64,000 bases of DNA from Litorivicinus sp. (lineage in GTDB: Bacteria; Pseudomonadota; Gammaproteobacteria; Pseudomonadales; Litorivicinaceae): positions 1-64,000 of the forward strand of contig JAOLBK010000010.1 of NCBI GenBank assembly GCA_028339155.1, written 5' to 3'. The notes under the pieces are model-generated. The model was given only the letters and a program-made list of their open reading frames with translations. It was not told the origin of the DNA and did no database searches. Numbering within the stretch: the first letter of the stretch is position 1; every line of letters begins with the position of its first letter. A program made the position numbers and the translations under genes. This document shows, piece after piece, positions 12,910-35,521 of the stretch.

Positions 12910-12924
12910 TTAGATTTCTAAGTA
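12910..12924. promoter_or_regulatory. Candidate operator TTAG-N4-CTAA, copy 1
   Basis: TTAGATTTCTAAGTA lies 19 bp upstream of the ferredoxin start and 79 bp upstream of the oppositely oriented Rieske oxygenase. The same near-palindrome recurs at 21332, 27128 and 35507, each time in a promoter region. A MarR protein is the natural candidate ligand (inference). Confidence 0.5.
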
Positions 12925-13002
12925 CTATTATTCTAGCATGCTGTTGAGGGGCTGGGATTACACAACCAGACTTTTTTTGAATGAAAGGGATTAGGAATAG
13001 CT

Positions 13003-14289
13003 ATGCTTTCTCAAGATGATAATGATCTATTAACTCAAACTGGCCCAGGCACGCCAATGGGTGAGGTATTCCGTCGGAACTGGTTGCCGATACTAATATC
13101 GAGTGAGCTGCCAGGGAATGATTGTCCGCCGGTTCGCGTTCAAGTTCTTTCAGAACGATTGATCGCTTTTAGAGATTCCGACGGCAAGCTTGGATTGGTC
13201 GATGAGTTTTGCGCTCATCGAGGGATTTCGCTTTGGTTTGGCCGGAATGAAGAGGGCGGAATCCGTTGTCCTTATCATGGTTGGAAATATGACGTAGAGG
13301 GAAATTGTACCGAGATTCCGTCGGAGTCAGCAGATAGTGGTTTGTGCGATAAGATCAAGTTGACTGCGTATCCAATGATTGAGAAAGGTGGCGTAATTTG
13401 GGTGTATATGGGGCCGAAAGAGCTGACTCCGCCAGAACCGGAGTGGGAATTTATTTGTGTTCCTGCTGAGAATACTTTCTCGTCAAAGCGCATTCAGGAA
13501 TGCAATTGGCTGCAAGCGATGGAGGGTGGTATTGACTCGTCACACGTCTCATTCTTGCACCGCTTTACAATGAATAAAGACCCGTTATTCAAAGGGGCTA
13601 AGGGAAATCAGTACAATCTGAAAGATTCAAAGCCGGCCTTTGAAGTGAAGCAGGTCGATGGTGGGCTCTTGATCGGTGCGCGAAGAAATGCCGATGACGA
13701 AAATTATTATTGGCGAGTAACACCGTTTATTGCGCCAACGTTTACGATGATCCCGCCGCGAGGCGATCACCCCGTTCATGGGCATTTCTGGGTGCCGATT
13801 GACGACCATACGAATATGTCTTGGAGTTACGACTATCATCCGGCTCGGGCGCTGAGTGCTGATGAACGAGCGGCAATGGAGCGTGGAGAAGGTATTCATG
13901 TGCCCTATATTCCAGGCACATTCAGGCCACTCCAAAACAAAGAGAATGACTATTTAATGGATCGTGATGCCCAGAAAAATGGGGGTAGTTACAGCGGTAT
14001 TGACGGATTTGCGATGCAGGATGCGTCGGTCCAGGAATCGATGGGGCCTATTGTTGACCGAACCAAAGAGAATCTAGTCTCTACGGATAACGGAATTATC
14101 ATGGCACGTAAGGTTCTCAAGCGAGCGGCACTAAATCTTCGGGATAAGGGAATTCAGCCGCCAGGAGTTGATCCAGAGCATCAAAAGATTCGCTCAGTGG
14201 CTAAGTTGATCCCGAAAAGTGAGGATTTTTTAGAATCTGCAGCTGATGACTTTAAGGTTAAGCCAGGCATTCGTCAGACGTCCGTATGA
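13003..14289 (+). CDS. Rieske non-haem iron oxygenase, phthalate-4,5-dioxygenase-like
   Basis: A 428-aa oxygenase alpha subunit. The Rieske centre is CAHRG near residue 68 and CPYHGW near 87; the mononuclear iron motif is the HxxxxH in IDSSHVSFLH near 184. The layout is that of phthalate 4,5-dioxygenase and 3-chlorobenzoate dioxygenase, which use no beta subunit. It should hydroxylate or O-demethylate an aromatic acid with electrons from a ferredoxin or reductase. The start is ATG with an AAAGG site. The downstream unknown gene overlaps by 4 bp (ATGA). A second paralogue is at 25800. Confidence 0.92.
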   Translation: MLSQDDNDLLTQTGPGTPMGEVFRRNWLPILISSELPGNDCPPVRVQVLSERLIAFRDSDGKLGLVDEFCAHRGISLWFGRNEEGGIRCPYHGWKYDVEGNCTEIPSESADSGLCDKIKLTAYPMIEKGGVIWVYMGPKELTPPEPEWEFICVPAENTFSSKRIQECNWLQAMEGGIDSSHVSFLHRFTMNKDPLFKGAKGNQYNLKDSKPAFEVKQVDGGLLIGARRNADDENYYWRVTPFIAPTFTMIPPRGDHPVHGHFWVPIDDHTNMSWSYDYHPARALSADERAAMERGEGIHVPYIPGTFRPLQNKENDYLMDRDAQKNGGSYSGIDGFAMQDASVQESMGPIVDRTKENLVSTDNGIIMARKVLKRAALNLRDKGIQPPGVDPEHQKIRSVAKLIPKSEDFLESAADDFKVKPGIRQTSV

Positions 14290-14801
14290 CCGAGTCAATC
14301 GTTTCCCCTGATCAAGGTGGAAGGTGCGCGGAAAGGCATTCCGCGCAGGCATTGACGTATCGGATTCAAAAGCCTAACAGTCACCCACGTTCGTATGCGT
14401 TTGTTGTTCATGATGAGTGCAGAGGCTTGTTTGAAAGTCTTCTGCCTGCGAGTTCTGATATTGGCTCATCGAAGGATTTGGTTTATGTGTCAGGTCTTGG
14501 ATTTGCTGGGATTGATGAACTCTTCGCTCATGACTCACCGGATTTTCTGACGCTGCTGTGTCCCGCAAGTCCCTGCGATGCGGAGAGTTTTTCTTTAGTC
14601 ATTCGCCGGCTTTCTTCATGGATGAGTGAGCGCTTTGTGACCACTGTACTGTGGACGCAGGGAAGTGATCCTTCTTCATCAGCCTCCAGCGCACCCAAGT
14701 TAATTGAAGATCTCAGAGCGATCTCTTCGCAAGTCGTGTGGGTTGATGGGCCTTCAGATCTGCAAGAGATCTTGAAGGCGCTGAGAATACCTGTTTGGTG
14801 A
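14286..14801 (+). CDS. Unknown 171-aa protein coupled to the Rieske oxygenase
   Basis: Not recognised. Its ATG overlaps the Rieske oxygenase stop (ATGA), which argues for translational coupling and for a role with the oxygenase. The protein is soluble, without signal peptide or membrane segment. Patterns such as LVYVSGLGFAGIDELFAH and ITALWTQG-like hydrophobic strands suggest an alternating alpha/beta fold, but no nucleotide-binding motif is visible. It converges with the dienelactone hydrolase gene (2 bp apart). A chaperone-like, regulatory or electron-transfer-docking role is speculation. Confidence 0.65.
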   Translation: MTESIVSPDQGGRCAERHSAQALTYRIQKPNSHPRSYAFVVHDECRGLFESLLPASSDIGSSKDLVYVSGLGFAGIDELFAHDSPDFLTLLCPASPCDAESFSLVIRRLSSWMSERFVTTVLWTQGSDPSSSASSAPKLIEDLRAISSQVVWVDGPSDLQEILKALRIPVW

Positions 14802-14802
14802 G

Positions 14803-15450: not shown

Positions 15451-15463
15451 AAATTATCTCTCC

Positions 15464-16509: not shown

Positions 16510-16670
16510 GAACGATTTCTTTGTTGTGATCTTAGATATACATATACGCTTTGATACCAGATTGTTCATTATAAGAAGTGAAAGGATTTCGTTATGGGAC
16601 TGGATCGGATTTGCTAGAAGATTCATTGAGGGCATTCGCGTAAGATCGGTGAAACTTTGGGAGAATTCTG

Positions 16671-17237: not shown

Positions 17238-17248
17238 GAGGGCGAGAG

Positions 17249-17824: not shown

Positions 17825-17836
17825 GGTAAAAATAGG

Positions 17837-18206: not shown

Positions 18207-19196
18207 TCAGAGTGAGTATGATTCCATTGATGATGGATGAAACAATTCTGATGCATTAAGTTTTTTCGTCGAAAGCCCTTGTTCGTGGTGATAGCGAAGA
18301 AAAGTGTCTATTACGTGTTGGTTCTCAGAAAAACCATACGTCCAGAGTTCGGGGCCTAGGTTTTGCCTTACGTAATCGATTTGCTCATCCAGCATCGGCA
18401 GCGTCATTTTGCTTGCTGAGGTATCAAGAATTGCTTCTAGTGCGATTTCCCGGGCTTGCTCAAACGCTTTGTATAATGAAGCAGGCAACCATGGGTATTG
18501 TTCGACCAGAGTTTTCTTAATGCCAAGCACATGCATGATCGGGAAAATCTGGGTGTCGTTGTAATACTTGGCAACTTCGCCAAATGTGTCCGGGAATAAT
18601 CGCCCGTAATTACTGTTGGAATAAAAGTCTCCGGGAGGCCTTGGCCCGATCAAACCGTCTATTTCGCCGTCTTTCATTAGTTGATTAAGCGTTTTTCCTT
18701 CAGGTGCTTCCTGGTAGTCCAGCCCTTCGGGTAGTTTGACCTTAATTTTTTCAGGTCGTTTTGGGTCAAATAGACCACCGCGTATCCAATGGACGTCAGT
18801 TTGCGGGACTTGGTAGTAATCTTCCAGAATCCCTCTTACCCAGACATTCGCCGTGAGTTGATATTCGGTAACTCCGAGCGTTTTCCCTTTTAAATCGGCT
18901 GGTTGTTTAATTCCGGCATCATTTCGAATGAAGACAGCGGAATGTCTGAAGGATCTTGATAAGAAAACAGGAACCGCGATGTAGGGAAAGTCGGGATTCC
19001 CTGCGCCGACGCAATAGGAAGAAAAGGATAGTTCGCAGACATCAAATGATTGGTATCTAAAGGCCCTATAAAACATCTCTTCAGGTGAGAAAAAAAGATG
19101 GTTTGGATCAACACCCTCAATTTGCACTCGACCATCAGAAATTGGCCTGGTCCGATCATAATTACCAGTAGCGATTGTAAGATTAATTTTTGACAT
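18207..19196 (-). CDS. 4,5-dihydroxyphthalate decarboxylase-like protein (PBP2 fold)
   Basis: A 329-aa protein without signal peptide. It matches the family of Pseudomonas 4,5-dihydroxyphthalate decarboxylase (Pht5), which has the type 2 periplasmic-binding fold. Recognisable parts are TIATGNYDRTRPISDG at the N terminus, FRHSAVFIRND near 95 and DLKGKTLGV near 110. It overlaps the SDR gene by 14 bp. A paralogue lies 2.2 kb away on the plus strand (21405). It should decarboxylate a dihydroxy-dicarboxylate to protocatechuate or a similar acid, though the fold also serves as a ligand-binding protein. The annotation as an enzyme is by family. Confidence 0.82.
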   Translation of the reverse strand: MSKINLTIATGNYDRTRPISDGRVQIEGVDPNHLFFSPEEMFYRAFRYQSFDVCELSFSSYCVGAGNPDFPYIAVPVFLSRSFRHSAVFIRNDAGIKQPADLKGKTLGVTEYQLTANVWVRGILEDYYQVPQTDVHWIRGGLFDPKRPEKIKVKLPEGLDYQEAPEGKTLNQLMKDGEIDGLIGPRPPGDFYSNSNYGRLFPDTFGEVAKYYNDTQIFPIMHVLGIKKTLVEQYPWLPASLYKAFEQAREIALEAILDTSASKMTLPMLDEQIDYVRQNLGPELWTYGFSENQHVIDTFLRYHHEQGLSTKKLNASELFHPSSMESYSL

Positions 19197-19995
19197 CGTG
19201 TTTCCCTCCGTTGTCAGATTCTAAAAGTTCTATTTCCGCCCAATCCCGGATTGCAGTCACGCCATTATCTACTTTAAGATCAATGCCTTGAATCGATTGG
19301 TTGGTTGGGGATGCTAGAAACCACGCAGCCGCAGCCACTTCGTCTGGTTTTGTGATTCTGCTGACTAGTTTGCGGTTGCTCACGCTTCGTGACTGAAAAG
19401 CGGTTCGAAATAGAGGCGTTAGTCGTGTTTCAACAGATGACGGGCTAACAGAATTGTACCGAACGAGTTGCTGACTTGCCGCCATCATCTGGGTCCATGC
19501 AATCAAAATTTCTTTTGATAATTCATACGCGCGTGCTGGTGTCATGGGAGCGCTTTGGATTAGGTTTTGAAGGTCTGTACTGGTATTGCATTTCAGATAG
19601 CTGCGGATCTCTCGGTAGTTACTCTTCCAGCCCGCGCCCGCCCGCGAAGCGATCGTTGTGACTGAACTGTTCGGAGATAATTTTTCGTTCAGTCTCGTGG
19701 TGAGTAGCTTAGTACCAAGCCAGTTGATATTTAATATGTCTAGCTGGTTGTCGTTTTGAGGTGCGATTCCAGCACAATTGATGAGTCCGTTAATTGACTT
19801 GGGAAGTGACTCGGCCGCTTTTTCTATGGAGTCTACGTCCATTAGATCTAGGTAAATAAAACGTTCGGAGTCCATTGATTGCCTATCCATCATGAATACT
19901 TGATGCCCATGCGACTCGATCAGTTGGTGGATCGCCATGCCTATTCCGTTTGCTGCGCCGGTGACGACAAAATTGAGAGCTTTAGTCTGTTTCAT
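19183..19995 (-). CDS. Short-chain dehydrogenase/reductase (SDR)
   Basis: A 270-aa SDR. TGAANGIGMAIHQL near the N terminus is the cofactor loop, INCAGIAP the NNAG equivalent, and YELSK the YxxxK catalytic pair; the Ser of the triad is probably in TIASRAGAG. This layout resembles coniferyl-alcohol- and 3-alpha-hydroxysteroid-type dehydrogenases. It overlaps marR upstream by 4 bp and the decarboxylase-like gene by 14 bp, so all three are one operon. A cis-dihydrodiol or alcohol dehydrogenation between the Rieske oxygenase and decarboxylase steps is a fitting role, by inference. Confidence 0.88.
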   Translation of the reverse strand: MKQTKALNFVVTGAANGIGMAIHQLIESHGHQVFMMDRQSMDSERFIYLDLMDVDSIEKAAESLPKSINGLINCAGIAPQNDNQLDILNINWLGTKLLTTRLNEKLSPNSSVTTIASRAGAGWKSNYREIRSYLKCNTSTDLQNLIQSAPMTPARAYELSKEILIAWTQMMAASQQLVRYNSVSPSSVETRLTPLFRTAFQSRSVSNRKLVSRITKPDEVAAAAWFLASPTNQSIQGIDLKVDNGVTAIRDWAEIELLESDNGGKHDVKN

Positions 19996-20453
19996 TGGTC
20001 ATCCGTGTGTAAGCTATGGCTCAATTTCCCGAGAAGATTGCGGAGCTGCTCGGTTTCCGTGTCTGAAAAGTTCTGTAGAGCCTTGTTATTGACTGCTTTT
20101 GCGAGAGGAATAAGGACGGATTCTAGTTTTTTTCCTTTTGGGGTGAGTGTCACAATCATCTTCCTTCGATCCCCCACATCTCTTTGTCTTTGCACCAATT
20201 CGAGACTTTCCATGCCTGCTAGTGCTGTAAACGTGGTGGACTCTTTCATTCCAACCGCCATCGCCAGTTCGCGCTGAGTAATGCCGTCTTGTTCCCACAA
20301 TACTCGAAGAAAGTGGTACTGCCCGAGTAGAATTCCGTACGGAGCAATGTCCTTTTGAAGCGTTCGACTGAACTGCCTGGTCAAATCGCGGATTAGATAA
20401 GCGATTGATTGTTCTGTTGAAAATTTCGAATTTTTCCTCGATTTTTGAGTCAT
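19992..20453 (-). CDS. MarR-family transcriptional regulator
   Basis: A 153-aa winged-helix protein. RELAMAVGMKESTTFTALAGM forms the recognition helix region and DRRKMIVTLTPKGKK the wing that defines MarR proteins. It is placed inside an operon for an aromatic pathway (tauE upstream, SDR and decarboxylase downstream), the usual setting for a repressor released by a phenolic acid. Four copies of TTAGRTNNCTAA in the window, one ahead of the operon at 21332, are candidate binding sites. Direct linkage of this protein to those sites is inference. Confidence 0.92.
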   Translation of the reverse strand: MTQKSRKNSKFSTEQSIAYLIRDLTRQFSRTLQKDIAPYGILLGQYHFLRVLWEQDGITQRELAMAVGMKESTTFTALAGMESLELVQRQRDVGDRRKMIVTLTPKGKKLESVLIPLAKAVNNKALQNFSDTETEQLRNLLGKLSHSLHTDDQ

Positions 20454-20484: not shown

Positions 20485-21255
20485 TCAAAATAAGTTGATT
20501 GCTGATTGGTAGATTAATGACAGGGCAACAGACCCAAGTGTCAGCATAACCGCTCGTTCGAATAGGTTCTCGGAAATTACTGAGCGCAGGCGTTCACCAT
20601 AGTAAACGCCTGTCAGCATTGGAAGGCAGATTGCTGCAGACCCAGCAAGTTGTTGCCAAGTGAACGCGTCTAGTACGGCCAGCCCCCCGTACATGGGTAT
20701 AAAGCCTCCGAGATAGAGAAAGGCAATCACTCTTACGAAGTCATCTTTTTTTAAGTTCTCGAGAGACGATAAATACAGCACTAAAAGTGGTCCCACAAAG
20801 GATGTCGTTCCTCCGACAAAGCCAGCCACTAAGCCGCCAAATGGCCCGAAGTAACCTTCCTGAGCAGATGGGATACGGAGTTTTAGCTTGAAAATGCGTA
20901 GGCAAACATTGCAAATAACGATTAGACCTAAGCCCAGTTTTAATAGGTCAGTATTAGCAGATACTAGTATTTGAACTCCGATAACAACGCCAGCAATTTG
21001 AAACAGCCCAAGAGGCCAAAATCGAGAGAAGTATTGTTTAAATGGCTTGTTTAATTTTGCCTGATAAATATTCGAAAATAGAACGGGAACTGCCATCAGG
21101 GGAATTACTGCAAGCAGCGGCATGAAGAGGGCGAGCAGCGGTGTTGCAAAGATTGGCATACCGAAGCCGAGAAATCCTTTAATCATTCCCCCAATAAAAA
21201 CGATCAGAGCAATAATGAGTAATGATTCTGTAGAGAGTGCAAATATTTCAGGCAT
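20485..21255 (-). CDS. TauE/SafE-family membrane permease
   Basis: A 256-aa membrane protein with about seven to eight helices and the family signatures GMIKGFLGFGMPIFATPLL near the N terminus and AGFVGGTTSFVGPLLVLYL in the middle. TauE/SafE proteins export sulfite, sulfoacetate or other organic anions. It is the first gene of the leftward unit with marR, SDR and the decarboxylase-like gene. The sequence before ATG is A-rich with no clear Shine-Dalgarno. A second member is at 45947. In this context it may move an aromatic acid or pathway by-product. Confidence 0.87.
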   Translation of the reverse strand: MPEIFALSTESLLIIALIVFIGGMIKGFLGFGMPIFATPLLALFMPLLAVIPLMAVPVLFSNIYQAKLNKPFKQYFSRFWPLGLFQIAGVVIGVQILVSANTDLLKLGLGLIVICNVCLRIFKLKLRIPSAQEGYFGPFGGLVAGFVGGTTSFVGPLLVLYLSSLENLKKDDFVRVIAFLYLGGFIPMYGGLAVLDAFTWQQLAGSAAICLPMLTGVYYGERLRSVISENLFERAVMLTLGSVALSLIYQSAINLF

Positions 21256-21331: not shown

Positions 21332-21346
21332 TTAGATACCTAAGTA
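21332..21346. promoter_or_regulatory. Candidate operator TTAG-N4-CTAA, copy 2
   Basis: TTAGATACCTAAGTA lies in the divergent region between tauE (starts 21255) and the decarboxylase-like gene (starts 21405). It is flanked by TTGACG (21325) and CGTCAA (21351), a further outer inverted repeat. This site faces the operon that encodes the MarR protein, so autoregulation is likely if MarR is the ligand. Confidence 0.55.
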
Positions 21347-21404: not shown

Positions 21405-22391
21405 ATGTTAGATCTCACCTTCGCGTGTCATGACTATGACCACGTCAGAGATATTTTTAGCCCAGACGTGGTTACCGAGGGCATTCGACTCAATCAATTA
21501 AAGCTTCAAGTGGAAGAAATTTTTTTCCGTTTTATAAAGTTTGGTGAGTTTGAGATTTCGGAACATTCTTTTGCCAAATACGTCAGTTTAAAATCAAAGG
21601 GATTGGCAAAAGGAACCGCTATTCCTGTATTTCCTTCGCGAGTATTTCGCCATTCAGCGATTTATGTGCGTTCTGATTCGCCTATTAAATCGCCCTCAGA
21701 TCTGGAAGGGAAACGTATCGGGATTCCTGAATGGGGGCAAACTGCAGGTGTTTACGTGCGCGGAGCATTGGCAGACCAGTTCGGCGTCGATCTGGGCTCG
21801 ATTGAATGGATTCAGTCCGGAGTACACCAGCCAGGGCGCGCTGAAAAAGTAAAATTCAATCTTCCTGATTGGGCCAACGTGACACCCAATACTGAAAAAA
21901 ATCTTAATGAATTATTGCTTAGTGGTGCGGTTGATGCGGTCATTACAGCGCATCCAATTCAGTCTTTCAAAGACGGTGATTCAAGAGTCAAGCGAATGTT
22001 CGAAGATCCTCGGGAAATTGAGATGGAGTATTTTGATTTGACGGGCTGCTTTCCAATTATGCATACCATCGTAATCCGAAATGACATCCTTGAGAGCGCT
22101 CCTTGGGTCGCTCAAACCGTGTTCAAAGGTCTGGATCAGGCACGACAACGGTGCGTTAATCGGTTGCGTGATGCGACGGCCTCAGCCGTGCCGATGCCAT
22201 GGATATTTGCCGCGTTACAGGATTCGAAGAAATTGTACGGTGAGCATGACTTTTGGTCGTACGGAATTGAAGCGAATCGTGCGACCCTGGAAACCTTCGC
22301 TCGCTACTGTTATCAGCAGGGCGTCGCTGATCGTTTGATGGGCCCGGAAGACCTTTTTTTCCCAAACACTTTTGAATCTTTTAAGGTTTAA
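21405..22391 (+). CDS. 4,5-dihydroxyphthalate decarboxylase-like protein, second copy
   Basis: A 328-aa paralogue of the protein at 18207. Shared features are FRHSAIYVRSD near residue 85, DLEGKRIGIPEW near 105 and the VYVRGAL segment; identity is clear but not high. No signal peptide is seen, so it is cytosolic. It starts a plus-strand operon with the fused TRAP permease (2 bp downstream) and the TAXI binding protein. Since TAXI systems already have their own binding protein, this copy is more likely enzymatic. Its divergence from the neighbour suggests a related but different substrate. Confidence 0.82.
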   Translation: MLDLTFACHDYDHVRDIFSPDVVTEGIRLNQLKLQVEEIFFRFIKFGEFEISEHSFAKYVSLKSKGLAKGTAIPVFPSRVFRHSAIYVRSDSPIKSPSDLEGKRIGIPEWGQTAGVYVRGALADQFGVDLGSIEWIQSGVHQPGRAEKVKFNLPDWANVTPNTEKNLNELLLSGAVDAVITAHPIQSFKDGDSRVKRMFEDPREIEMEYFDLTGCFPIMHTIVIRNDILESAPWVAQTVFKGLDQARQRCVNRLRDATASAVPMPWIFAALQDSKKLYGEHDFWSYGIEANRATLETFARYCYQQGVADRLMGPEDLFFPNTFESFKV

Positions 22392-22393: not shown

Positions 22394-24322
22394 ATGAATT
22401 TAGGTGGTTTATTTAGCTCTGGAGTTTCCAGAAATCCGACTGGCTTGGTTGGTTATTTACTAACTGGTTACGGCGCATTATTTATGGCTTGGTCGGTGTA
22501 TGCGGCCGTGTTCGCAAAACTTGATGCATTAGTTTTGGTCACGTTATTTTTATCTTTTATGCTGGTCTTGGTGTTTTCGACGATCTCCGCAAGCTCGGTT
22601 AGGTCGGATGACAACACGGAGACGGTGGCAGTAATCGATTACCTTTTGATCGCTTTGAGTATCTCTTGTGGTGTTTATTTTGGAATTAATTCTGAAGCAA
22701 TTGCGACCCGAATTACGTTACTTGATCCACTGACTCAATACGATGTTGGATTTGCTTCTTTGCTGATTGTTTTGTGCTTGGAAGTTTGTCGTCGGACTGT
22801 CGGATTAATGCTGACTGTAATTGTCGCTTTATTCATGGCTTACAACCTGTATGGCCACGTACTGCCGAACCCGTTTTCACATGGGTACATTAGTTACGAG
22901 CATTTTTTAGACATTATGATCTTTACGACTGATGGTCTATTCGGCACGCCACTTCGAGTCGCAGCTACTTATGTGTTGCTGTTCGTTTTGTTTGGTACGT
23001 TTCTCGCTAATGCTGGAGGTGGTGAATTCTTCAATGATTTGGCGGCATCGGTCGCGGGTGCAAAGGTCGGTGGACCTGCTAAAATTGCTGTTGTTTCTTC
23101 GGGCCTTTATGGAACGATCTCAGGCAGTCCGACGTCCGATGTAGTCACCACAGGATCGATCACGATTCCGATGATGAAGAAGATTGGTTATCCGGCTGTT
23201 GTTGCTGGTGGTGTTGAGGTTGCTGCGTCAACGGGTGGTAGTATTTTGCCTCCAGTTATGGGGTCTGCTGCTTTTATTATGGCTGAATACACTGGAATCC
23301 CGTACCTCGATATTGTGATTGCGTCCACGATTCCGGCTCTACTTTATTATTTTTCGGTCTATTCCCAAGTCCACTTTACATCGGTTCGACTGGGTCTGAA
23401 GGGGCTTGACAAGGACGCGGTACCACCACTTAGTCAGACATTAAAAAATGGGGGTTTATTTTTAATACCCCTGGGGGCAATCGTGTGGGCCCTTATAGAA
23501 GGCTATAGCCCAACTTTTGTTGCATTGTTCGGTGCAGTTGGCGTCATTGGAATTTCGTTTTTGAGAGCATCGACGCGTATGTCGGCTCGGGATGTTGTTA
23601 ATACTTTGTCTGAAACGGCCCGTAGAATGGCTCCGGTTGTGGGTGCTTGTACTGCAGCGGGATTCGTTATTGGTGGAATTACCATGACTGGATTAGCTGC
23701 AAAGCTGTCTGCGCTTGTATTTTTAATGACGGGGAATATGGTTTGGTTGACCCTTGTCGTTGCAGCGATTATGACAATAATTCTTGGTATGGGTATGCCA
23801 ACCGTTAGCTCCTATATTCTAGCTGCAGTTCTGATTGGTCCATTGCTGATCAAACTGGGTATTCCTGAAATGTCTGCGCATTTATTTCTTCTGTATTACG
23901 CGGTTCTTAGTGCGATTACACCGCCGGTTGCGGTTGCTGCTTTTGCGGCGGCGTCGATTGCCAATGCTAATCCAATGCAGATCTCATTTAAGGGCGTCCA
24001 GTTTGCGATCGGCGCATTCCTTTTACCGTTCTTTTTTATTCTTGATGCCGGTTTGTTGGGTGAAGGCTCGGTGATCGATGTTGTTTGGGCCACTGTTCGG
24101 GCAGCACTTGCATTTTTGATTATATCGATGGCTGTTGCGGGATGTTTTGTTCGGGCCTTGAGTGCGATTCAGCGTATTACTTGTTTGATCGTGGTGTTCG
24201 CAATTTTGGCGCCCATTATTTGGGTCCAAGTACTAGGATTTATCGCGGGAATACTGGGTTTGTTTTTACTCAACCGTGAGCAGCGTAAGAGTATCGAGTA
24301 CGAGAGTGTAACGGGGCATTAG
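22394..24322 (+). CDS. TAXI-TRAP transporter fused permease (DctQM)
   Basis: A 642-aa multi-spanning protein. An N-terminal part of about 200 residues corresponds to the small DctQ subunit, followed by the large DctM domain with GLYGTISGSPTSDVVTTGS and GMPTVSSYILAAVL. These blocks are typical of TRAP permeases that work with TAXI-type binding proteins. It begins 2 bp after the decarboxylase-like gene and precedes the TAXI binding protein by 25 bp. The transporter imports an organic acid using a sodium or proton gradient. Roughly sixteen hydrophobic segments are visible by eye. Confidence 0.93.
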   Translation: MNLGGLFSSGVSRNPTGLVGYLLTGYGALFMAWSVYAAVFAKLDALVLVTLFLSFMLVLVFSTISASSVRSDDNTETVAVIDYLLIALSISCGVYFGINSEAIATRITLLDPLTQYDVGFASLLIVLCLEVCRRTVGLMLTVIVALFMAYNLYGHVLPNPFSHGYISYEHFLDIMIFTTDGLFGTPLRVAATYVLLFVLFGTFLANAGGGEFFNDLAASVAGAKVGGPAKIAVVSSGLYGTISGSPTSDVVTTGSITIPMMKKIGYPAVVAGGVEVAASTGGSILPPVMGSAAFIMAEYTGIPYLDIVIASTIPALLYYFSVYSQVHFTSVRLGLKGLDKDAVPPLSQTLKNGGLFLIPLGAIVWALIEGYSPTFVALFGAVGVIGISFLRASTRMSARDVVNTLSETARRMAPVVGACTAAGFVIGGITMTGLAAKLSALVFLMTGNMVWLTLVVAAIMTIILGMGMPTVSSYILAAVLIGPLLIKLGIPEMSAHLFLLYYAVLSAITPPVAVAAFAAASIANANPMQISFKGVQFAIGAFLLPFFFILDAGLLGEGSVIDVVWATVRAALAFLIISMAVAGCFVRALSAIQRITCLIVVFAILAPIIWVQVLGFIAGILGLFLLNREQRKSIEYESVTGH

Positions 24323-25671: not shown

Positions 25672-25993
25672 AAGATGTTGAAGCAGGATGAGATTACGTT
25701 GCATCCTGGCGCAGTTAGGGCATGCAAAGAAGGTGATCTAATGTGTCTTGTTTCGTAATCTCTCTAAGCTGTGAATAACTTAGAGAGGTTGATGTTCCGC
25801 TATGCACGGCACAATGTGCGCCAATCTGTTTCTTTGGTGTGCACGCCCTCATATGACCTAATTTGAACGTGAGAGAGTGATTTTGGCCCTGTTCCAATGG
25901 CTGGATCTCCAGCGAGAATAGTTTTGGCCGCATCCACCATTAATTTTCTGAATTCGACAACCGCCTGATCTGAGGCACCCAACTTGTCAGTGG
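25672..25993. repeat. Diverged tandem duplication, copy 2
   Basis: The left part (25672-25740) is a relic of the TAXI gene's last ~20 codons, the middle (25757-25790) a degenerate terminator hairpin and the right part (25800-25993) is the genuine end of the Rieske oxygenase. Together with copy 1 it shows that the gene-end/terminator/gene-end junction was duplicated. Confidence 0.7.
25757..25790. terminator. Second bidirectional terminator hairpin, degenerate copy
   Basis: A 14-nt arm AATCTCTCTAAGCT pairs imperfectly with AACTTAGAGAGGTT, allowing G-U pairs, around loop GTGAAT. It lies 10 bp past the Rieske oxygenase stop at 25800 and probably ends that minus-strand gene. Confidence 0.55.
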
Positions 25994-27059
25994 TTCGATT
26001 AACAACCGTTCCCATCGATACCCACATAATGACATCCTGGTTCGGAATTCCTGGAACACCCGTAAAGTTACCGTTTTTCATAGCCTCACGGTCTTGAAGA
26101 AAGCGGTTGTGGGGCTGTCTTTTCGAGAGCCAGTTATTGTCAAGGTCGACACCAACGACGGCATGATTAAATTGTCGCCACTCGTCGGTATCTGGACATG
26201 TTTCTCCGCCCCACGCGATGAAATTGAGCATTGATGTGGAATCATCGACTGGAACGACTACCGTCGTCACGTTGTAACTAGAGTTGGGCGGGATTAAGCA
26301 CGTGAAGGGTGCGATAAATTCAGTGATTCTAAAGTAATCATTTACATTAGCTTGTTTTATCGGGTGACGGATCGCCGCGTAATGAAAGCCGTAGTCTGTT
26401 CTTTCGACCTGTAACCGGGGTGATCGATCTGTGGATGGGCGATACCATGCCTTGTTGTCTGCAGCCGCAGCTTCGACTCGAGCGGGTAACATGTCGGACG
26501 AGTGAAGACTTGATGAGTGAGACGAATCAATCTGGCCTTCCATGATTTGTGCCCAATTAGCTGGAATTCGCATTCGAGTCACTGATACTTTCGTGTCTTC
26601 TTTCGGAGCAAATGCTGGCGGTTCAAATGTGGATTCTTTGCTCGGATCGCCAAGCCATGCCCACACAAAACTGCCCCATTCTCTTGTTGGGTACGCTTTG
26701 TGAAGCACTTTGTTAATTAACTGACTTCCCTCAGGTTCTGAAGGCATTTCGGTGCAGTGACCAGACGTGTCAAATTTCCAGCCGTGATACAAGCAAACGA
26801 GACCGCAATTCTCACTTCGGCCATACAGTAATGAGGCATGACGGTGCGGGCACAGCTCGTCAAGGAGACCGACGTTTCCGTTACTGTCCCTGAACGCAAC
26901 TAATCGCTCGCCAAAGACCTCGACCAAAAGGGGAGTGCAATCTGCCTCCGGAAGCTCTTCGATTAGACACACAGGAACCCAGTGCTGTCGCATGAGTTGC
27001 CCCATCGGTGCATCACCAGTAACTTTAGTTAGCAGCTCGTTTTCTTCGATCGTTAACAT
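25800..27059 (-). CDS. Rieske non-haem iron oxygenase, second phthalate-dioxygenase-like subunit
   Basis: A 419-aa oxygenase. The Rieske centre is CPHRH near residue 70 and CLYHGW near 89; the iron motif is in IDSSHSSSLH near 177. It is clearly related to the oxygenase at 13003 but well diverged. It is divergent from a phthalate-dioxygenase-type reductase at 27154, and the pair probably forms a complete two-component system. ATG 27059 is preceded by GGAGAA. Its final ~190 bp lie in copy 2 of the local duplication. The substrate is probably an aromatic acid imported by the TAXI system. Confidence 0.92.
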   Translation of the reverse strand: MLTIEENELLTKVTGDAPMGQLMRQHWVPVCLIEELPEADCTPLLVEVFGERLVAFRDSNGNVGLLDELCPHRHASLLYGRSENCGLVCLYHGWKFDTSGHCTEMPSEPEGSQLINKVLHKAYPTREWGSFVWAWLGDPSKESTFEPPAFAPKEDTKVSVTRMRIPANWAQIMEGQIDSSHSSSLHSSDMLPARVEAAAADNKAWYRPSTDRSPRLQVERTDYGFHYAAIRHPIKQANVNDYFRITEFIAPFTCLIPPNSSYNVTTVVVPVDDSTSMLNFIAWGGETCPDTDEWRQFNHAVVGVDLDNNWLSKRQPHNRFLQDREAMKNGNFTGVPGIPNQDVIMWVSMGTVVNRTTDKLGASDQAVVEFRKLMVDAAKTILAGDPAIGTGPKSLSHVQIRSYEGVHTKETDWRTLCRA

Positions 27060-27127: not shown

Positions 27128-27142
27128 TTAGATTACTAATTA
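27128..27142. promoter_or_regulatory. Candidate operator TTAG-N4-CTAA, copy 3
   Basis: TTAGATTACTAATTA lies 12 bp before the reductase start (27154) and 69 bp before the divergent oxygenase start (27059). Binding here would block initiation of both. It differs from copies 1 and 2 only in the spacer and one flanking base. Confidence 0.5.
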
Positions 27143-27153
27143 TATTTGTTTAG

Positions 27154-28116
27154 ATGCCGAAATCAATGATTGATGACAAACCACTCCGACTAGTAATTGC
27201 TTCAAAAACCGTGGTCGCCGAAGATATTTGCGAATTTACTCTCGCATCTATGGATGGCGGTAGCCTCCCTGAGTTTGATCCGGGTGCCCACGTGACGATA
27301 GAAACCCCGCATGGATCTAGTAGACGATATTCGCTGATTAATGCTGGGGTTGCGCCAAACAAATACGTTATTGCCGTTAAGAAAGAACTAAACTCACGGG
27401 GTGGTTCACGATCAATGCATGACAATCTTCAGGCAGGTTCTGAGATCTCCGTGTGGCCCCCTGAGAATAGTTTTCCACTTGCTGACGCTTCGCGATATTT
27501 GTTTATCGCTGGGGGTATTGGCATTACCCCGATTCTTGCAATGGCCAATCACTGCGTCGAAACCGGTCAAGAATTTGACATTATTTATTGTGCGCGAAGT
27601 GCAGAGTCAGCCGCCTACCATGAGACGATAGCGAGCCAATTCGGTGATCGTGTCATCATTCATTTGGATGGCGGAGACCCGGAAAAAGCCTATGATTTTT
27701 GGGATTGGTTTGTGACGCCGAGTAATGTGCACGTTTATTGTTGTGGGCCAAAACCACTCATGGAAGAGGTAAAGGCAGTTAGTGGACATTGGCCGAGTAA
27801 GAATATTCATTTTGAGGATTTCAAGCCTGTTGAGGCGGTGGGCCAGGATGCAGAGGCATTTGAAGTTCGATTGACTTCGACGGGCCAGACGTTTCAGGTT
27901 GAAGGGAATCAATCGATACTGGAGACTCTGCGAAGCGGTGGAGTCAGGGTCCCGAGTTCTTGTGAAAGTGGATCATGCGGTTCATGTCGCATGAAACTCG
28001 TTTCTGGAAAAGTGATTCATCGTGATTTTGTTTTGACATCAAGCGAATACGCATCGGCGCTTATGGTTTGTGTTTCTCGAGGAGATGGTCTCATTGAAAT
28101 CGACTTTGAAAGTTGA
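27154..28116 (+). CDS. Phthalate-dioxygenase-type reductase (FMN, NAD, [2Fe-2S])
   Basis: A 320-aa three-domain reductase. Residues 1-105 are the flavin barrel (RRYSLINAG), 106-225 the NAD domain (AGGIGITPILAM), and 235-320 a plant-type ferredoxin with CESGSCGSC plus a distal Cys in MVCVSRG. This order is that of phthalate dioxygenase reductase and vanillate demethylase reductase. It transfers electrons from NADH to the Rieske oxygenase encoded divergently. The Gfo/Idh/MocA gene overlaps its 3' end by about 23 bp. No strong ribosome site is seen before its ATG, which follows TTTAG. Confidence 0.92.
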   Translation: MPKSMIDDKPLRLVIASKTVVAEDICEFTLASMDGGSLPEFDPGAHVTIETPHGSSRRYSLINAGVAPNKYVIAVKKELNSRGGSRSMHDNLQAGSEISVWPPENSFPLADASRYLFIAGGIGITPILAMANHCVETGQEFDIIYCARSAESAAYHETIASQFGDRVIIHLDGGDPEKAYDFWDWFVTPSNVHVYCCGPKPLMEEVKAVSGHWPSKNIHFEDFKPVEAVGQDAEAFEVRLTSTGQTFQVEGNQSILETLRSGGVRVPSSCESGSCGSCRMKLVSGKVIHRDFVLTSSEYASALMVCVSRGDGLIEIDFES

Positions 28117-29284
28117 TGATCCAATTCGATTGGGTGTGGTCGGGCTGGGCCGAGGGTTCAGTCTTTCAGCCCCCAGTCTTCTTGAAGATCCGCATGTCTC
28201 GGTGGTTGCTGCCTCGGCGCCTAGGCAGGAATCTCGCGACTCATTTCAGAAACAGTTTGGTGGTCAGGCCTATGCCAGGTACGAAGATTTGCTGGCAGAT
28301 AATCAGGTCGAAGCGATTCATGTGGTAACGCCGCATGGGTTGCACGCAGAAATGATCGAGCAGGCAGCCGCCGCAAAAAAACACCTTCTCGTGGATAAGC
28401 CGCTATCGATCCAGCTTGAGGACGGGTTGCGCGCGATCAAGGCCTGCAAAAAATATCAGTCAACGCTATTAATTGGTCCGTGTCATTCATTTGATCGGCA
28501 GATTCTTGATGTCTCGGACTGGATTCGATCCGGTGAATTCGGGCCAGTATTGGCTGTGCAAGCCATGAATTATACGGATTTCATGTACCGCCCAAGACGA
28601 CCAGAAGAATTTGATACGTCGGCGGGTGGTGGTGTGCTTTTTTCACAGGGCGCTCATCAGATTGATATTGTTCGCCTTCTTTGTGGTGGGATGGTGTCAC
28701 AAGTTTTCGCGGTCACCGGCCATTGGGATCCGTCACGACAAGGCGAGCATTCGTATCAAGCCATTCTTAAGTTCGAGTCTGGTGCCACAGCCCAATGCAC
28801 ATATTCTGGTTTTGCGCATTTCGACTCGGATGAATGGCAGGATTGGGTGAGTGAGACGGGATTTCAAAAAGATCCTGACCAATACGCAAAGGCCAGGAAG
28901 CTCCTGTCGGAGTCAACAGATGATGAAATAACGCTGAAGCGTGGCCGAACGTTTGGGGCCAATGATTTGAGCCCGATTCCGCCATTTAATGAGCATTTTG
29001 GTCCGTTACTCGTTCAGTGCCAAAAAGCAGATCTTCGGGTCACCGCGCAAGGTGTTCATGTGTACGCAGACTTAGATCGATCCTTTCGTGATGTGCCTGT
29101 CAAGATTTCTGCCCGGGCCCCAGTTTTTGAGGCTCTGTATTCTGCGATTCGCCGCGGCACCTCGCCAGTTCAAACAGGTGACTGGAGTCTTGCGACGTTA
29201 GAAATTTGTCATCTGATCATCGAGTCAGCACGGCTTGGTGAGGCCGTGAGGCCGAAGTTGCAGGTACCCACGCCCTCACTATAA
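28094..29284 (+). CDS. Gfo/Idh/MocA-family oxidoreductase
   Basis: A 396-aa protein with an N-terminal Rossmann fold (GVVGLGRG near residue 13) and the EKP-type motif present as VDKPLS near 101. The reading frame also offers GTG 28070 and ATG 28085, but GAGGAG at 28079-28084 abuts the ATG and fits TTG 28094 with 9-nt spacing. It overlaps the reductase gene. Family members oxidise sugars, inositols or, in phthalate clusters, cis-dihydrodiols; 4,5-dihydrophthalate dehydrogenase (Pht4/OphB) is of this family. That role fits the neighbouring Rieske system very well, though it is inferred. Confidence 0.82.
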   Translation: MKSTLKVDDPIRLGVVGLGRGFSLSAPSLLEDPHVSVVAASAPRQESRDSFQKQFGGQAYARYEDLLADNQVEAIHVVTPHGLHAEMIEQAAAAKKHLLVDKPLSIQLEDGLRAIKACKKYQSTLLIGPCHSFDRQILDVSDWIRSGEFGPVLAVQAMNYTDFMYRPRRPEEFDTSAGGGVLFSQGAHQIDIVRLLCGGMVSQVFAVTGHWDPSRQGEHSYQAILKFESGATAQCTYSGFAHFDSDEWQDWVSETGFQKDPDQYAKARKLLSESTDDEITLKRGRTFGANDLSPIPPFNEHFGPLLVQCQKADLRVTAQGVHVYADLDRSFRDVPVKISARAPVFEALYSAIRRGTSPVQTGDWSLATLEICHLIIESARLGEAVRPKLQVPTPSL

Positions 29285-29296: not shown

Positions 29297-30148
29297 ATGA
29301 ATATCGAATTGCCTAGCATTCTTTTCTCTGAGGATGTGCAGAGGAGTTTACGGGAAGATTTGGGCCGGGCAGGTGACTTGTCGACGCTCGCAACGATTGG
29401 TGCAGATCAAATGGCTGATGCTGCATTTGTTGCACGTGAGGGTGGTGTTGTTTGTGGTTTAGTGCACGCGCAAAAAGCGTTCGAATTAATTGACCCGGCT
29501 CTTAAATTCGAAATCTTAATGCCTGATGGTTCGATCGTGAGTCCGGGCGATGCGGTTGCGCGAGTGACCGGTCGTGCCAGACCGATCTTATTCGCTGAGC
29601 GTACTGCTTTGAATTTTGCCTGTCATTTGTCGGGGATCGCAACGATGACGGCCCGGTACGTTTCCGAAATTGCACACACGCATGCTCGGATGTGTTGTAC
29701 GCGGAAGACAATTCCTGGAATGCGAACATCACAAAAATATGCCGTTCGATGCGGTGGTGGTTGGAATCACCGGTTTGGATTAGACGATGCAATTTTGATC
29801 AAAGACAACCACATCGCGGTCGCTGGTGGTATTGAAGCAGCGCTGCGAGGCGCGAATGCGTTTGCCGGCCATTTGGTTAAAATCGAGATTGAGGTGGATA
29901 CCTTGTCCCAGCTAGATGAGGCGCTAACCCATGGTGCTGATTGTATTTTGCTGGACAATTTTGAGACTGCATCACTAATTGAGGCAGTCCAATTAACAGC
30001 AGGCAGGGCTAAGCTGGAGGCCTCAGGTGGCGTAAGGCTGAGCTCGGTCAGGGAAATTGCTGAAACGGGTGTGGATTATATTTCTTCGTCTCAGCTTACG
30101 ATGTCTGCTGAAACGTTTGATATTGGTCTTGATATCGCAGTGAGTTGA
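29297..30148 (+). CDS. nadC: Nicotinate-nucleotide pyrophosphorylase (NadC/ModD family)
   Basis: A 283-aa protein with the full QPRTase core: CTRKTIPGMRTSQKYAV near residue 135, GGGWNHRFGLDDAILIKDNH near 153. Quinolinate phosphoribosyltransferase converts quinolinate and PRPP to nicotinate mononucleotide and CO2; ModD is a close relative in molybdate loci. It starts 12 bp after the Gfo/Idh/MocA gene with AAAAGGA, in an operon with OCD and HIBADH-like genes. Such a place in a catabolic operon is unusual. It may act on an aromatic dicarboxylate intermediate or be a captured biosynthetic gene. NadC versus ModD cannot be decided here. Confidence 0.8.
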   Translation: MNIELPSILFSEDVQRSLREDLGRAGDLSTLATIGADQMADAAFVAREGGVVCGLVHAQKAFELIDPALKFEILMPDGSIVSPGDAVARVTGRARPILFAERTALNFACHLSGIATMTARYVSEIAHTHARMCCTRKTIPGMRTSQKYAVRCGGGWNHRFGLDDAILIKDNHIAVAGGIEAALRGANAFAGHLVKIEIEVDTLSQLDEALTHGADCILLDNFETASLIEAVQLTAGRAKLEASGGVRLSSVREIAETGVDYISSSQLTMSAETFDIGLDIAVS

Positions 30149-30157
30149 GAGGATTCG

Positions 30158-31255
30158 ATGAAATTAATTAATAATCAGGATGTCGCTTCGTTGGTCAAAA
30201 TGGACGAGATTATCGATGCATTAGAAAATGCGTATCGTGCATTTTTCGATGGGAGGGCTGTTTGCAGACCACGTATTGATATCGAGATCCCAGGACAGCG
30301 TTCGGATGCGCTGTATCGATGGGGATCGATGGAAGGTGGCATGCTGGGCGGTTACTTTGCGATTCGATGCAAGTCGGACATGATTTTTCATGAGGAAAAA
30401 GAAGGTCTAATTACGCAAGAAAAGTATTGCGTTGAACCGGGCACGTTTTGTGGATTTATTCTCTTATTCTCAATTGAAAATGGCGAGCCTCTGGCCTTAA
30501 TTAATGATGGTGTCATCCAGCACATGAGAGTGGCAGCCGATGGCGCGATTGGGATTAAGTACGCGAGTCGTCCTGATGCTAAGCACATTGGTTTGTTGGG
30601 CTCGGGTGGGATGGCTCGGGATCATCTGCGGGCGGCCGTCTGTGTTCGTGATATTACGTCGGTTTCTGTTTACAGCCCTACGCGTGAAAATCGTGAACGT
30701 TTTGCGGATGAAATGTCGAAAGAATTGGGTGTGCGGGTTATGCCTATGGATACGCCTGAGAAAGCAGTCCAGGGTGCTGACATTTTGATGGGGTGTACGG
30801 ATTCGGCGATACCAGTCATTAAGCCCGAATACCTTGAGCCGGGCCAGCATGTCATCAATATTGGTGGTGGTGGTGGTATTCCGTCAGAAATTCAGTCTCA
30901 AATCACTCGTTTTCTAAGATTTGGAAATACTGAATCACCCGTTGGTTGGGAAGATCAAAAGTTTGATGATGAGCATTTGACGTGGAGGACGCGGGCCGGC
31001 TTCTCTGACTCGATGCGTCCATCGAAAAAGCGTGCCCACCGAGAAATGGGAAGTAGTCGACTGACTTATTTATCCAGCATCATGAGCGATGAGCCATTTG
31101 CGCGAAGCACAAGCGATATCACCTATTCAGAACGCGGTAATTTACAGGGCAATCAGTTTCATGCGGTGGCCGGACTTGTTTATGAAAAGTCGATTGCTGC
31201 GGGTCGTGGTTTCGAAATTCCGACGAGTTATTTTTTGCAAGATATTCGCAACTGA
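30158..31255 (+). CDS. Ornithine cyclodeaminase/mu-crystallin family protein
   Basis: A 365-aa protein. MRVAADGAIGIKYAS near residue 122 is the substrate-side motif and GLLGSGGMARDHL near 147 the NAD-binding loop. The family includes ornithine cyclodeaminase, alanine dehydrogenase and imine (pyrroline/piperideine-2-carboxylate) reductases. It follows nadC by 9 bp, with GAGAGG as the ribosome site. A second, diverged member is at 39630. Reduction or deamination of a cyclic imino acid is a reasonable role; the substrate is unknown. Confidence 0.87.
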   Translation: MKLINNQDVASLVKMDEIIDALENAYRAFFDGRAVCRPRIDIEIPGQRSDALYRWGSMEGGMLGGYFAIRCKSDMIFHEEKEGLITQEKYCVEPGTFCGFILLFSIENGEPLALINDGVIQHMRVAADGAIGIKYASRPDAKHIGLLGSGGMARDHLRAAVCVRDITSVSVYSPTRENRERFADEMSKELGVRVMPMDTPEKAVQGADILMGCTDSAIPVIKPEYLEPGQHVINIGGGGGIPSEIQSQITRFLRFGNTESPVGWEDQKFDDEHLTWRTRAGFSDSMRPSKKRAHREMGSSRLTYLSSIMSDEPFARSTSDITYSERGNLQGNQFHAVAGLVYEKSIAAGRGFEIPTSYFLQDIRN

Positions 31256-31319
31256 TCAACCTGATCGGGCTGTGACTGAGTGGTGATGACTTAAAAAATC
31301 GTTAACAGGGGTGATGTAA

Positions 31320-32156: not shown

Positions 32157-32264
32157 AACAGCTTTGCGTCGAGGTCCAAACGGAACTGCTATTTCTTAAT
32201 CGCTTTAATCGAAGATCAGCACATGCTAGCTTGCACTTAACGGATTTATTACAGGTTATTTGCA

Positions 32265-34298: not shown

Positions 34299-34409
34299 GA
34301 AAGACGTTGATGCAAGGCAACCGAGATTAAATCCGTATGAGCGCACGGTTACAATTAGCGCTGAATTATCTAGTCTGTATAGGCAGGCTTTAACAAACGA
34401 GGAAATATA

Positions 34410-35441
34410 ATGAAAAAACTTCTCCAGACAGCGGCTATTGGCGTTGCATATGCGGTTGCATCAGTTGGTGCACAAGCGAATGTACATGCCAATCAAGTGG
34501 CTGATTTTTACAAAGGCAAGGATATCGAGCTACGGATCGGTTACAAGCCAGGTGGTGGATATGACAATTACGCGCGCTTGTTAGCGAGACATATTGGAAA
34601 GCACATTCCAGGAAATCCGAACGTGATTCCTAAAAATATGCCTGGTGCAGGAAGTGTTAAACTCACAAACTATTTATGGGAAGGCGCGCCGCAGGACGGC
34701 ACAGTCATTGGCGCAATTTCGCGTGGTGCTCCATTTGAGCCATTGCTTGGTAACTCCAAAGCTAAGTTTTCTGCAGACCAGTTCACGTGGCTTGGATCTG
34801 CAAACAACGAGGTTTCAATTTGCGCCACGGTTAAGCGGACCGGGATCAAGTCATGGACAGACTTGAAGTCTCAGACCGTAACAACTGGCGGTAACGGCAG
34901 TGGTTCTGATACGGATCAGTTTCCAAAGCTTCTGAACGCTGTTCTTGGAACAAAGTTTAAAGTTGTTGGTCCTTATGGCGGCGGTTCTGACATCGTAAAG
35001 GGCATGATTGCTGGTGAGCTAGATGCTCGTTGTGGTTGGTCATGGTCATCGATCAAGTCAAAAAACAAGGAACTGCTTGCGAGTGGAGACTTGGTCTTGT
35101 TGATGCAAATGTCGACAGAAAAGCATCCAGACCTGCCAAACGTGCCTTTGGTTATGGATCTAACAAAAGACAAAGAGTCTTTGCAGATTCTGAACTTAAT
35201 GTTTGCAAGACAAGGTCTTGGTCGTCCATACGTTGCGCCTCCTGGCGTCCCCGCAAAGCGTGCTAAGGCGTTGCAAGATGCCTTCATGAAGACAATGTCA
35301 GATCCTGAGTTTTTAGCTGAGGCTAAAAAGGGCGGCGTTAACTTGTCTCCGATCTCAGGTGAGCGTGTGGCCGAGTTAGTTGCAGCGGCTTACAAGACCC
35401 CTAAGGCGGTAATCGCGCGTACTATTGACGCGATTCGTTAA
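34410..35441 (+). CDS. tctC: Tripartite tricarboxylate transporter receptor, TctC/Bug family
   Basis: A 343-aa periplasmic receptor with a signal peptide of about 23 residues (cleavage near GAQA). VADFYKGKDIELRIGYKPGG and HIPGNPNVIPKNMPGAGS are the family's ligand loops. It is the partner of the TctAB fusion 112 bp upstream. A strong terminator follows at 35450. The ligand is likely a carboxylated compound used by the surrounding enzymes. The gene ends the transporter cistron; the eutA-like gene after it appears to have its own promoter. Confidence 0.93.
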   Translation: MKKLLQTAAIGVAYAVASVGAQANVHANQVADFYKGKDIELRIGYKPGGGYDNYARLLARHIGKHIPGNPNVIPKNMPGAGSVKLTNYLWEGAPQDGTVIGAISRGAPFEPLLGNSKAKFSADQFTWLGSANNEVSICATVKRTGIKSWTDLKSQTVTTGGNGSGSDTDQFPKLLNAVLGTKFKVVGPYGGGSDIVKGMIAGELDARCGWSWSSIKSKNKELLASGDLVLLMQMSTEKHPDLPNVPLVMDLTKDKESLQILNLMFARQGLGRPYVAPPGVPAKRAKALQDAFMKTMSDPEFLAEAKKGGVNLSPISGERVAELVAAAYKTPKAVIARTIDAIR

Positions 35442-35449
35442 CCGTCCTA

Positions 35450-35495
35450 AAAAGGGGATGTTTTTAGGCTGATTGCCTGACATCCCCTTTTATTT
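35450..35495 (+). terminator. Strong rho-independent terminator after tctC
   Basis: AAAAGGGGATGT pairs perfectly with ACATCCCCTTTT (12 bp) around an 18-nt loop, followed by ATTTT. It starts 9 bp past the tctC stop and would end transcription before eutA. Confidence 0.88.
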
Positions 35496-35506
35496 TCGAA
35501 ATTCAA

Positions 35507-35521
35507 TTAGGTATCTAAGTG
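35507..35521. promoter_or_regulatory. Candidate operator TTAG-N4-CTAA, copy 4
   Basis: TTAGGTATCTAAGTG lies between the tctC terminator and the GTG start of the eutA-like gene (35539). It is almost the reverse complement of copy 2, which fits a near-palindromic operator. Its position supports a promoter here and the downstream start for eutA. Confidence 0.5.

Follow-up and report, generated by a model that had tools for sequence, protein, structure and literature searches.

In a 64,000-nucleotide stretch of DNA from Litorivicinus sp. (contig JAOLBK010000010.1, positions 1 to 64,000; hereafter the window), four near-palindromes of the form TTAG-N4-CTAA lie in the gaps that precede four blocks of catabolic genes. 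These sites are very probably the operators of a MarR-family regulator encoded within the second block, which would act as an autoregulated repressor and be released by a phthalate-type acid. The sites, here called O1 to O4, a possible additional site and the regulator gene are as follows.

12910–12923, no strand assigned: O1, TTAGATTTCTAAGT, in the divergent gap between a ferredoxin gene (minus strand) and the gene for Rieske oxygenase 1 (plus strand)
21332–21345, no strand assigned: O2, TTAGATACCTAAGT, in the divergent gap between tauE-marR-SDR-decarboxylase (minus strand) and decarboxylase paralogue-TRAP (plus strand)
27128–27141, no strand assigned: O3, TTAGATTACTAATT, in the divergent gap between the gene for a phthalate-dioxygenase-like oxygenase (minus strand) and a reductase operon (plus strand)
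27150–27161, no strand assigned: O3b, a possible second, weaker operator, TTAGATGCCGAA, with two mismatches, 22 bp from O3
35507–35520, no strand assigned: O4, TTAGGTATCTAAGT, upstream of an eutA-cupin-tauD operon
19992–20453, minus strand: MarR-family regulator (PF01047, 5e-14), the proposed repressor of O1–O4

In the proposed mechanism, a MarR dimer would occupy TTAG-N4-CTAA within or next to the promoters that serve four regions of transcription: ferredoxin/oxygenase 1; tauE-marR together with the divergent decarboxylase-TRAP genes; the phthalate-dioxygenase-like oxygenase together with the divergent reductase-dehydrogenase-nadC genes; and eutA-cupin-tauD. Bound MarR would keep all four regions off and, through O2, would regulate its own gene. 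Binding of an inducer, either an aromatic acid of the phthalate type or an intermediate of the pathway, would make MarR leave the DNA, whereupon the genes for uptake, ring dihydroxylation, decarboxylation and quinolinate phosphoribosyltransferase would be induced jointly. By analogy with the auxin locus controlled by MarR_73, the likely signal is a phthalate-type acid.

An earlier note on this DNA reported TTAGRTNNCTAAKT at 12910, 21332, 27128 and 35507, and exact matches were found on the plus strand at all four positions; the fourth site also matches on the minus strand at 35505 and so fits both strands. TTAG-N4-CTAA occurs in the window at exactly four places, as that note had stated, although its chance expectation of about one per 64 kb proved slightly high. 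In dinucleotide-preserving shuffles (n = 100) the mean was 0.48 for TTAG-N4-CTAA and 0.00 for the 14-mer, and no shuffle reached four. The Litorivicinus assembly itself comprises 1,884,018 bases (1.88 Mb) in 34 contigs and is 87.8% complete (also given as 88%). Within it the 14-mer occurs at the four cluster places only, so that the motif is not equally frequent in coding DNA genome-wide, an outcome which the note had named as one that would refute its claim. Over 25 genomes of the family, 33 of 36 rows of 14-mer matches lie inside clusters and three outside, two of these in coding frames (G003:C27 and G006:C73) and one in a gap (G010:C2).

The 12-mer core is found at 17 places in the assembly, four of which are the cluster sites. 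When all 256 half-sites were counted with spacers of 0–12 (3328 dyads) in the 15 intergenic gaps of the cluster, TTAG-N4-CTAA ranked first, with 4 seen against 0.05 expected; when coding DNA was added, so that the full 30 kb was counted, its rank fell to 17th. The gap list for this count used an eutA start at 35552, and the start adopted later, at about 35539, keeps O4 in the gap. The strong evidence comes from comparison with relatives. A weight matrix trained solely on 34 of their sites gave the four sites scores of 18.3–25.2, while the next place in the window scored 7.1. None of the 13 other genomic core sites scored above 9.1 on this matrix, and for this reason no wider regulon in the genome is claimed.

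The sites are conserved at orthologous junctions. The exact core stands at the same junction in all genomes examined for O2 (13/13), O3 (12/12) and O4 (8/8). At O2, TTGACGATTAGATAYCTAAGT contains one variable base over the 13 genomes, and the rest of the gap has diverged. By eye, O1 lies between TTACCT and TATTAT hexamers and O2 likewise falls within a −35/−10-like spacer. O3 falls across the position where transcription from a TTGATT-16-TATAAT promoter (minus strand, 27166–27139), directed towards the oxygenase gene, is expected to begin. As read from the sequence, the placement of O1, O2 and O3 is the geometry of promoter occlusion. O3b, judged by eye, overlaps the −35/−10 spacer of the same minus-strand oxygenase promoter and is possibly a weaker half-operator, the partner of O3. 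Among the 12 genomes aligned there, TTAGATATCGAA is present in eight, variants occur in G007 and in the genome under study, and the site is absent in G009 and G011; it falls outside the top 14 of the matrix scan. A terminator-like hairpin (35443–35460) lies upstream of O4. The description of all four sites as lying in promoter gaps stands overall, with the qualification that 35507 is inside the longest mechanical EutA open reading frame (ORF; TTG at 35473), yet upstream of the likely start.

The regulator gene does lie within the second block, in the operon read from the O2 gap, so that a short palindromic operator is present in the regulator's own promoter region, before tauE-marR. Its product matches the winged helix-turn-helix family PF01047 with 52.4 bits over a cut-off of 24.6. 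It scores 29.1 bits against a cut-off of 120 in the curated NCBIfam model for SlyA and is therefore not a SlyA orthologue, though the form of the predicted operator is SlyA-like. For SlyA of Salmonella and E. coli, also of the MarR family, the consensus site is given as TTAGCAAGCTAA, and one copy precedes slyA itself (PMC5797941). The two systems thus have in common the operator arms and spacing TTAG-N4-CTAA, a winged-helix MarR protein and a site upstream of the regulator's own gene; they differ in the centre of the operator and in the local, catabolic scope of the regulon proposed here.

Across the family, motif and regulator occur together. At a threshold of E ≤ 1e-15, a MarR orthologue was found in 12 of the 25 genomes, the genome under study included, and the 14-mer in 13: every genome with MarR (12) plus G007, in which the contig stops right after tauE, short of the expected start of marR. 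The other 12 genomes lack the 14-mer, and a reversed control pattern is present in nine of them. With the genome under study excluded, the 14-mer is found in 11/11 MarR-positive and 1/13 MarR-negative relatives (Fisher P = 1e-5), these being related genomes and not 24 independent events. One extra core site, TTAGTTAGCTAA, was seen in G009 (L147 4902), between a second cupin gene and a decarboxylase gene; it has no counterpart among the sites in the window.

Because marR and the cluster co-occur within the genus, only loci from other families can separate MarR from the rest of the cluster. A scan of genome contigs beyond the family yielded seven MarR loci, L045–L051. In three of these, from metagenome-assembled genomes of Marinovum (L045), SAR116 (L046) and Alphaproteobacteria (L048), the MarR protein is 38–39% identical and an oxygenase gene lies beside marR. 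TTAGATATCTAA stands just upstream of the oxygenase gene in all three, between the oxygenase and reductase genes in L045 and L046 and at the locus end in L048, and a second core site precedes the aldolase-marR genes in L046 and L048. L049 and L051 (Sporosarcina) each have one core site, which precedes the MarR match by about 130 bases, and L050 has no exact core site.

A survey of 369 genomes of the class gave a MarR match (E ≤ 1e-18) in seven, the genome under study included, and the oxygenase (E ≤ 1e-90) in four: the genome under study, G131, G194 and G238. In both G131 and G194, phthalate genes lie beside MarR. G131 has core sites before the reductase and before the oxygenase genes, with a third inside a nearby 114-aa frame, and in this genome alone TTAG-N4-CTAA ranks first of the 3328 dyads; G194 has a core site in the gap after a second marR. 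G238 provides a single natural control: the gene order (TRAP, oxygenase / reductase, dehydrogenase, decarboxylase) is preserved, no MarR match reaches E ≤ 1e-18, and a search allowing one mismatch finds no core site in its 8.7-kb contig. In G145 (L109 7074–7103), a diverged MarR homologue is preceded, at a distance of about 500 bases, by two TTAG-N4-CTAA sites 18 bp apart; the stretch has 68% G+C.

A number of results weigh against MarR control of the four blocks. O1 is the least constant of the four sites. Its exact core is present at the same junction in six of the eight genomes examined, whereas G006 has a single mismatch there and the G011 junction yielded no site; the alignments had first been drawn from core-bearing genomes, and checking the reachable missing junctions afterwards lowered O1 to this count. 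A promoter scan reported no promoter in the O1 gap and none at O4, and in the O2 gap it found two weak promoters (9 of 12), neither overlapping O2, leaving O3 as the sole site of the four with a good match. The core contains stop codons, and of the 13 core sites elsewhere in the genome eight are likewise found outside ORFs (80 aa or longer); a position in a gap is therefore weak evidence alone, and the argument that a site is functional because it is intergenic was rejected. Were the 17 core sites placed at random, four would fall within some 22.6-kb stretch with P = 0.013, and clustering of the core alone is therefore modest evidence. Within the genus, where marR and cluster occur together, co-occurrence cannot separate MarR from another cluster-linked regulator. 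The informative loci in other families are few, and L045, L046 and L048 are much alike. In 17 kb of L047 (Burkholderiales), whose MarR has 40% identity and a similar recognition helix, no core site was detected even when one mismatch was allowed, and the locus shows no phthalate genes. The MarR homologues of G115, G144 and G218 are likewise accompanied by no exact core site in 15–20 kb, and these three genomes have no oxygenase at E ≤ 1e-90. Pooling L045, L048, L104 and L108 puts the dyad only in second place among the 3328 (7 seen, 0.43 expected). The sites of other families have the arms in common with the genus, but not the centre and flanks, and their matrix scores range from −0.5 to 16.0.

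Another regulator linked to the cluster might bind the motif, above all the product of the LysR-type gene at 3395–4354, which adjoins the cluster in G003, G015 and G018 as well. This is quite improbable: no homologue of that gene was seen in L045, L046, L048, L104 or L108 (loci covering 7–16 kb), all of which have both motif and MarR, and the short symmetric TTAG-N4-CTAA has the MarR/SlyA form and not that of LysR sites, which take the form T-N11-A. Still less credible is binding by a MarR paralogue from elsewhere in the genome. Two other PF01047 matches over the cut-off do exist (C12:52190 and C30:60155), but no core site lies within 7 kb of either, and across relatives the motif follows the cluster MarR. 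Least of all can the sites be put down to chance palindromes in A+T-rich gaps, which would account for a core that occurs 17 times in the genome, often in gaps, but are already contradicted by conservation at orthologous junctions and by the association with MarR; a chance origin is ruled out by the shuffles, the uniqueness of the 14-mer in the genome, the dyad rank, the junction conservation and the matrix scores taken together.

A rather better, though still unlikely, alternative concerns only the sign of control, in that the cluster MarR may bind the operators and activate transcription, entirely or in part, or else both activate and repress. Some proteins of the family are reported to activate (PMC5797941, PMC9613470), and O1, O2 and O4 are without a strong consensus promoter. 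Repression is favoured by the overlap of O3 with its expected start and by the position of O1 and O2, by eye, in −35/−10 spacers, as for occlusion, and characterised MarR-family regulators are described as mostly repressors (PMC9613470). A MarR regulon extending over four blocks, as the earlier note had proposed, is the best-supported reading, on the basis of the motif form, the site in the regulator's own promoter region, the junction conservation, the co-occurrence with marR and the recurrence in other families.

That note left the pathway unnamed and did not remark on nadC. Judged by homology, the cluster appears to encode a complete phthalate 4,5-dioxygenase pathway, whose natural substrate may be either phthalate or a different aromatic dicarboxylate. 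Listed from O3 and O2 outwards to O1 and O4, the genes are as follows.

25800–27059, minus strand: phthalate 4,5-dioxygenase-like Rieske oxygenase, RO2 (PDB 7fjl, 554 bits)
27154–28116 (start more likely 27166), plus strand: phthalate dioxygenase reductase-like (PDB 2pia, 288 bits)
28070–29284, plus strand: dihydrodiol dehydrogenase-like, Gfo/Idh/MocA family (PDB 7wzd, ‘4,5-dihydroxyphthalate dehydrogenase’, 349 bits)
29297–30148, plus strand: quinolinate phosphoribosyltransferase, nadC (TIGR00078, 312.5 bits, cut-off 198.4)
30158–31255, plus strand: ornithine cyclodeaminase-like
20485–21255, minus strand: TauE/SafE-like transporter, first gene of the marR operon
19183–19995, minus strand: SDR dehydrogenase, marR operon
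18207–19196, minus strand: 4,5-dihydroxyphthalate decarboxylase-like (PDB 9jp7, 389 bits, full length)
21405–22391, plus strand: paralogue of the 4,5-dihydroxyphthalate decarboxylase (PDB 9jp7, 228 bits)
22394–24322, plus strand: TRAP transporter DctM
24348–25340, plus strand: NMT1-like (TAXI type) solute-binding protein (PF16868)
13003–14289, plus strand: isophthalate dioxygenase-like Rieske oxygenase, RO1 (PDB 9ina, 465 bits)
12580–12891, minus strand: Rieske ferredoxin (PF00355)
11534–12553, minus strand: Amidohydrolase 2 family, possible decarboxylase (PF04909)
9867–11492, minus strand: FAD aromatic hydroxylase
9101–9919, minus strand: class II aldolase/adducin family (best NCBIfam match PhtC, below cut-off)
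35473–37053, plus strand: EutA-like protein (PF06277; start likely GTG 35539 or TTG 35542)
37079–38188, plus strand: cupin protein (PF07883)
38185–39027, plus strand: TauD/TfdA-family dioxygenase (PF02668)

The PDB 7fjl match of RO2 is to the phthalate dioxygenase PDO-KF1 of Comamonas KF1, and RO2 keeps all five PDO-KF1 residues S182, R207, R244, I256 and F280. These five are named in PDO-KF1, with S182, R207 and R244 contacting phthalate (PMC12445078). The reductase match to 2pia spans residues 7–311 of 320. The same source identifies PDB 9ina, the match of RO1, as isophthalate dioxygenase, and describes a V178A/F249H double mutant of that enzyme with a wider substrate range (PMC12445078). 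In an alignment made by eye, with an inferred numbering offset, RO1 keeps the two carboxylate-contacting residues and has Arg where the solved enzyme has F249. The substrate of RO1 may differ from that of isophthalate dioxygenase. The gene at 21405, for which Pfam and NCBIfam suggest a transporter binding protein, was reassigned as a decarboxylase paralogue on its PDB 9jp7 match.

Both TRAP and Tct transporter genes are among the cluster set. The EutA-like gene shares an operon with the cupin and TauD-type dioxygenase genes (35473–39027), and no ethanolamine lyase genes were seen among the neighbours examined. Hydantoinase A/B-like genes flank the regulon at 4478–8167 and 44243–45805, with TauD, TRAP and Tct genes nearby; these flanks contain no exact core site.

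MarR genes beside phthalate genes are not new, and the regulon is a well-supported, fairly ordinary control circuit, which includes an unusual gene of NAD synthesis. In Sphingobium yanoikuyae SHJ, the MarR gene phtR is described beside genes for a decarboxylase, a dehydrogenase, phthalate 4,5-dioxygenase and quinolinate phosphoribosyltransferase, and the paper assigns MarR to phthalate regulation (PMC6051330). As far as the descriptions go, this phtR-phtCB-phtAa-phtD cluster resembles the present one in its gene set; in the available text its regulation rests on annotation, no operator is given and there is one cluster, whereas here four operators extend over further blocks. The marine Thalassospira phdK-pht cluster has genes for Pht3, Pht2, Pht4 and Pht5 with a TRAP transporter and a MarR-family gene (PMC9604089). 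It is alike, by description, in combining these elements in a marine bacterium, and unlike in that neither an operator nor a second oxygenase or eutA-cupin-tauD block is mentioned in the available part of that paper. OphR is tabulated as a member of the MarR family (PMC5031561). The view that no MarR of phthalate clusters is in print was rejected on account of these three sources; PMC6362181, considered as a further paper on MarR and phthalate, was set aside, the match being an author's name only. An operator for the MarR of phthalate clusters is given in none of the available portions of PMC6051330, PMC9604089 and PMC5031561, nor named in the titles and abstract openings of the literature searched, and the literature search found no paper on marine SAR116 bacteria and phthalate. 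A functional parallel is offered by the Variovorax auxin (iad) locus, where MarR_73, or IadR, represses and is released by the carboxylate-bearing indole-3-acetate (PMC9613470). By description it is likewise a MarR repressor of an aromatic acid catabolic locus that is released by a carboxylate substrate, but that substrate is indole-3-acetate and one DNA site is described, between iadR and iadA, as against the four operators here.

The third block, the reductase-dehydrogenase operon at O3, includes nadC (29297–30148). This is the only copy found in the genome, nadA being elsewhere. Thirteen genomes of the family, the one under study included, bear the cluster, and in 10 of them, again with the one under study, the in-cluster nadC is the only one found; two of these ten, G011 and G018, are 99 and 98% complete. 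In G004 and G009, nadC is on another contig, and no nadC was found in G006. The clusters of other families differ, G131 and G194 having two nadC copies each, one of them in the cluster, while the four MarR-bearing class genomes without the oxygenase have one each. A tree of 24 sequences places the in-cluster copies of the genus together with that of G194, a long branch, on one side of a split with support 99/99, separate from the nadC genes of family members that lack the cluster; for G131, the in-cluster copy is closest to the second copy of that same genome. The nadC of the window is 51% identical to the in-cluster copy of G194, 41–48% to seven other copies from other families and 38–43% to those of six cluster-less family members. 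The in-cluster nadC seems to have replaced the housekeeping gene.

Phthalate inhibits quinolinate phosphoribosyltransferase as a quinolinate analogue. It is tentatively suggested, as an idea somewhat short of probable, that a nadC of the phthalate-operon type displaced the housekeeping nadC in cluster-bearing members of the genus, so that the sole quinolinate phosphoribosyltransferase would be under MarR control and NAD synthesis would be tied to, and protected from inhibition by, a phthalate-like substrate. The ophE gene of Burkholderia cepacia DBO1, the subject of work by Chang and Zylstra in 1999, is reportedly a second copy, while the nadC of the window is the only one found. The likeness lies in the link between the enzyme and growth on phthalate, a nadC-type enzyme being present inside the phthalate cluster here and also in G131 and G194. 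OphE is described as enhancing growth on phthalate and as not part of the pathway (as cited in PMC6051330).

With this analysis, a run of catabolic genes that had no name becomes a single regulon whose operator and pathway are defined and which can be tested. The multi-operator layout and nadC add to its interest; the MarR-phthalate clusters already in print detract from it. The operator sequence and the four-site layout would make such MarR regulation of phthalate genes testable, for example in the form of a phthalate biosensor. Likewise, the lone nadC inside the operon poses a question of metabolic wiring that can be tested directly. If it is transcribed from O3 only, NAD synthesis would depend on a catabolic repressor; if the displacement proposed above is true, MarR would have to be leaky or dual-acting, or else a further promoter would be required for nadC.

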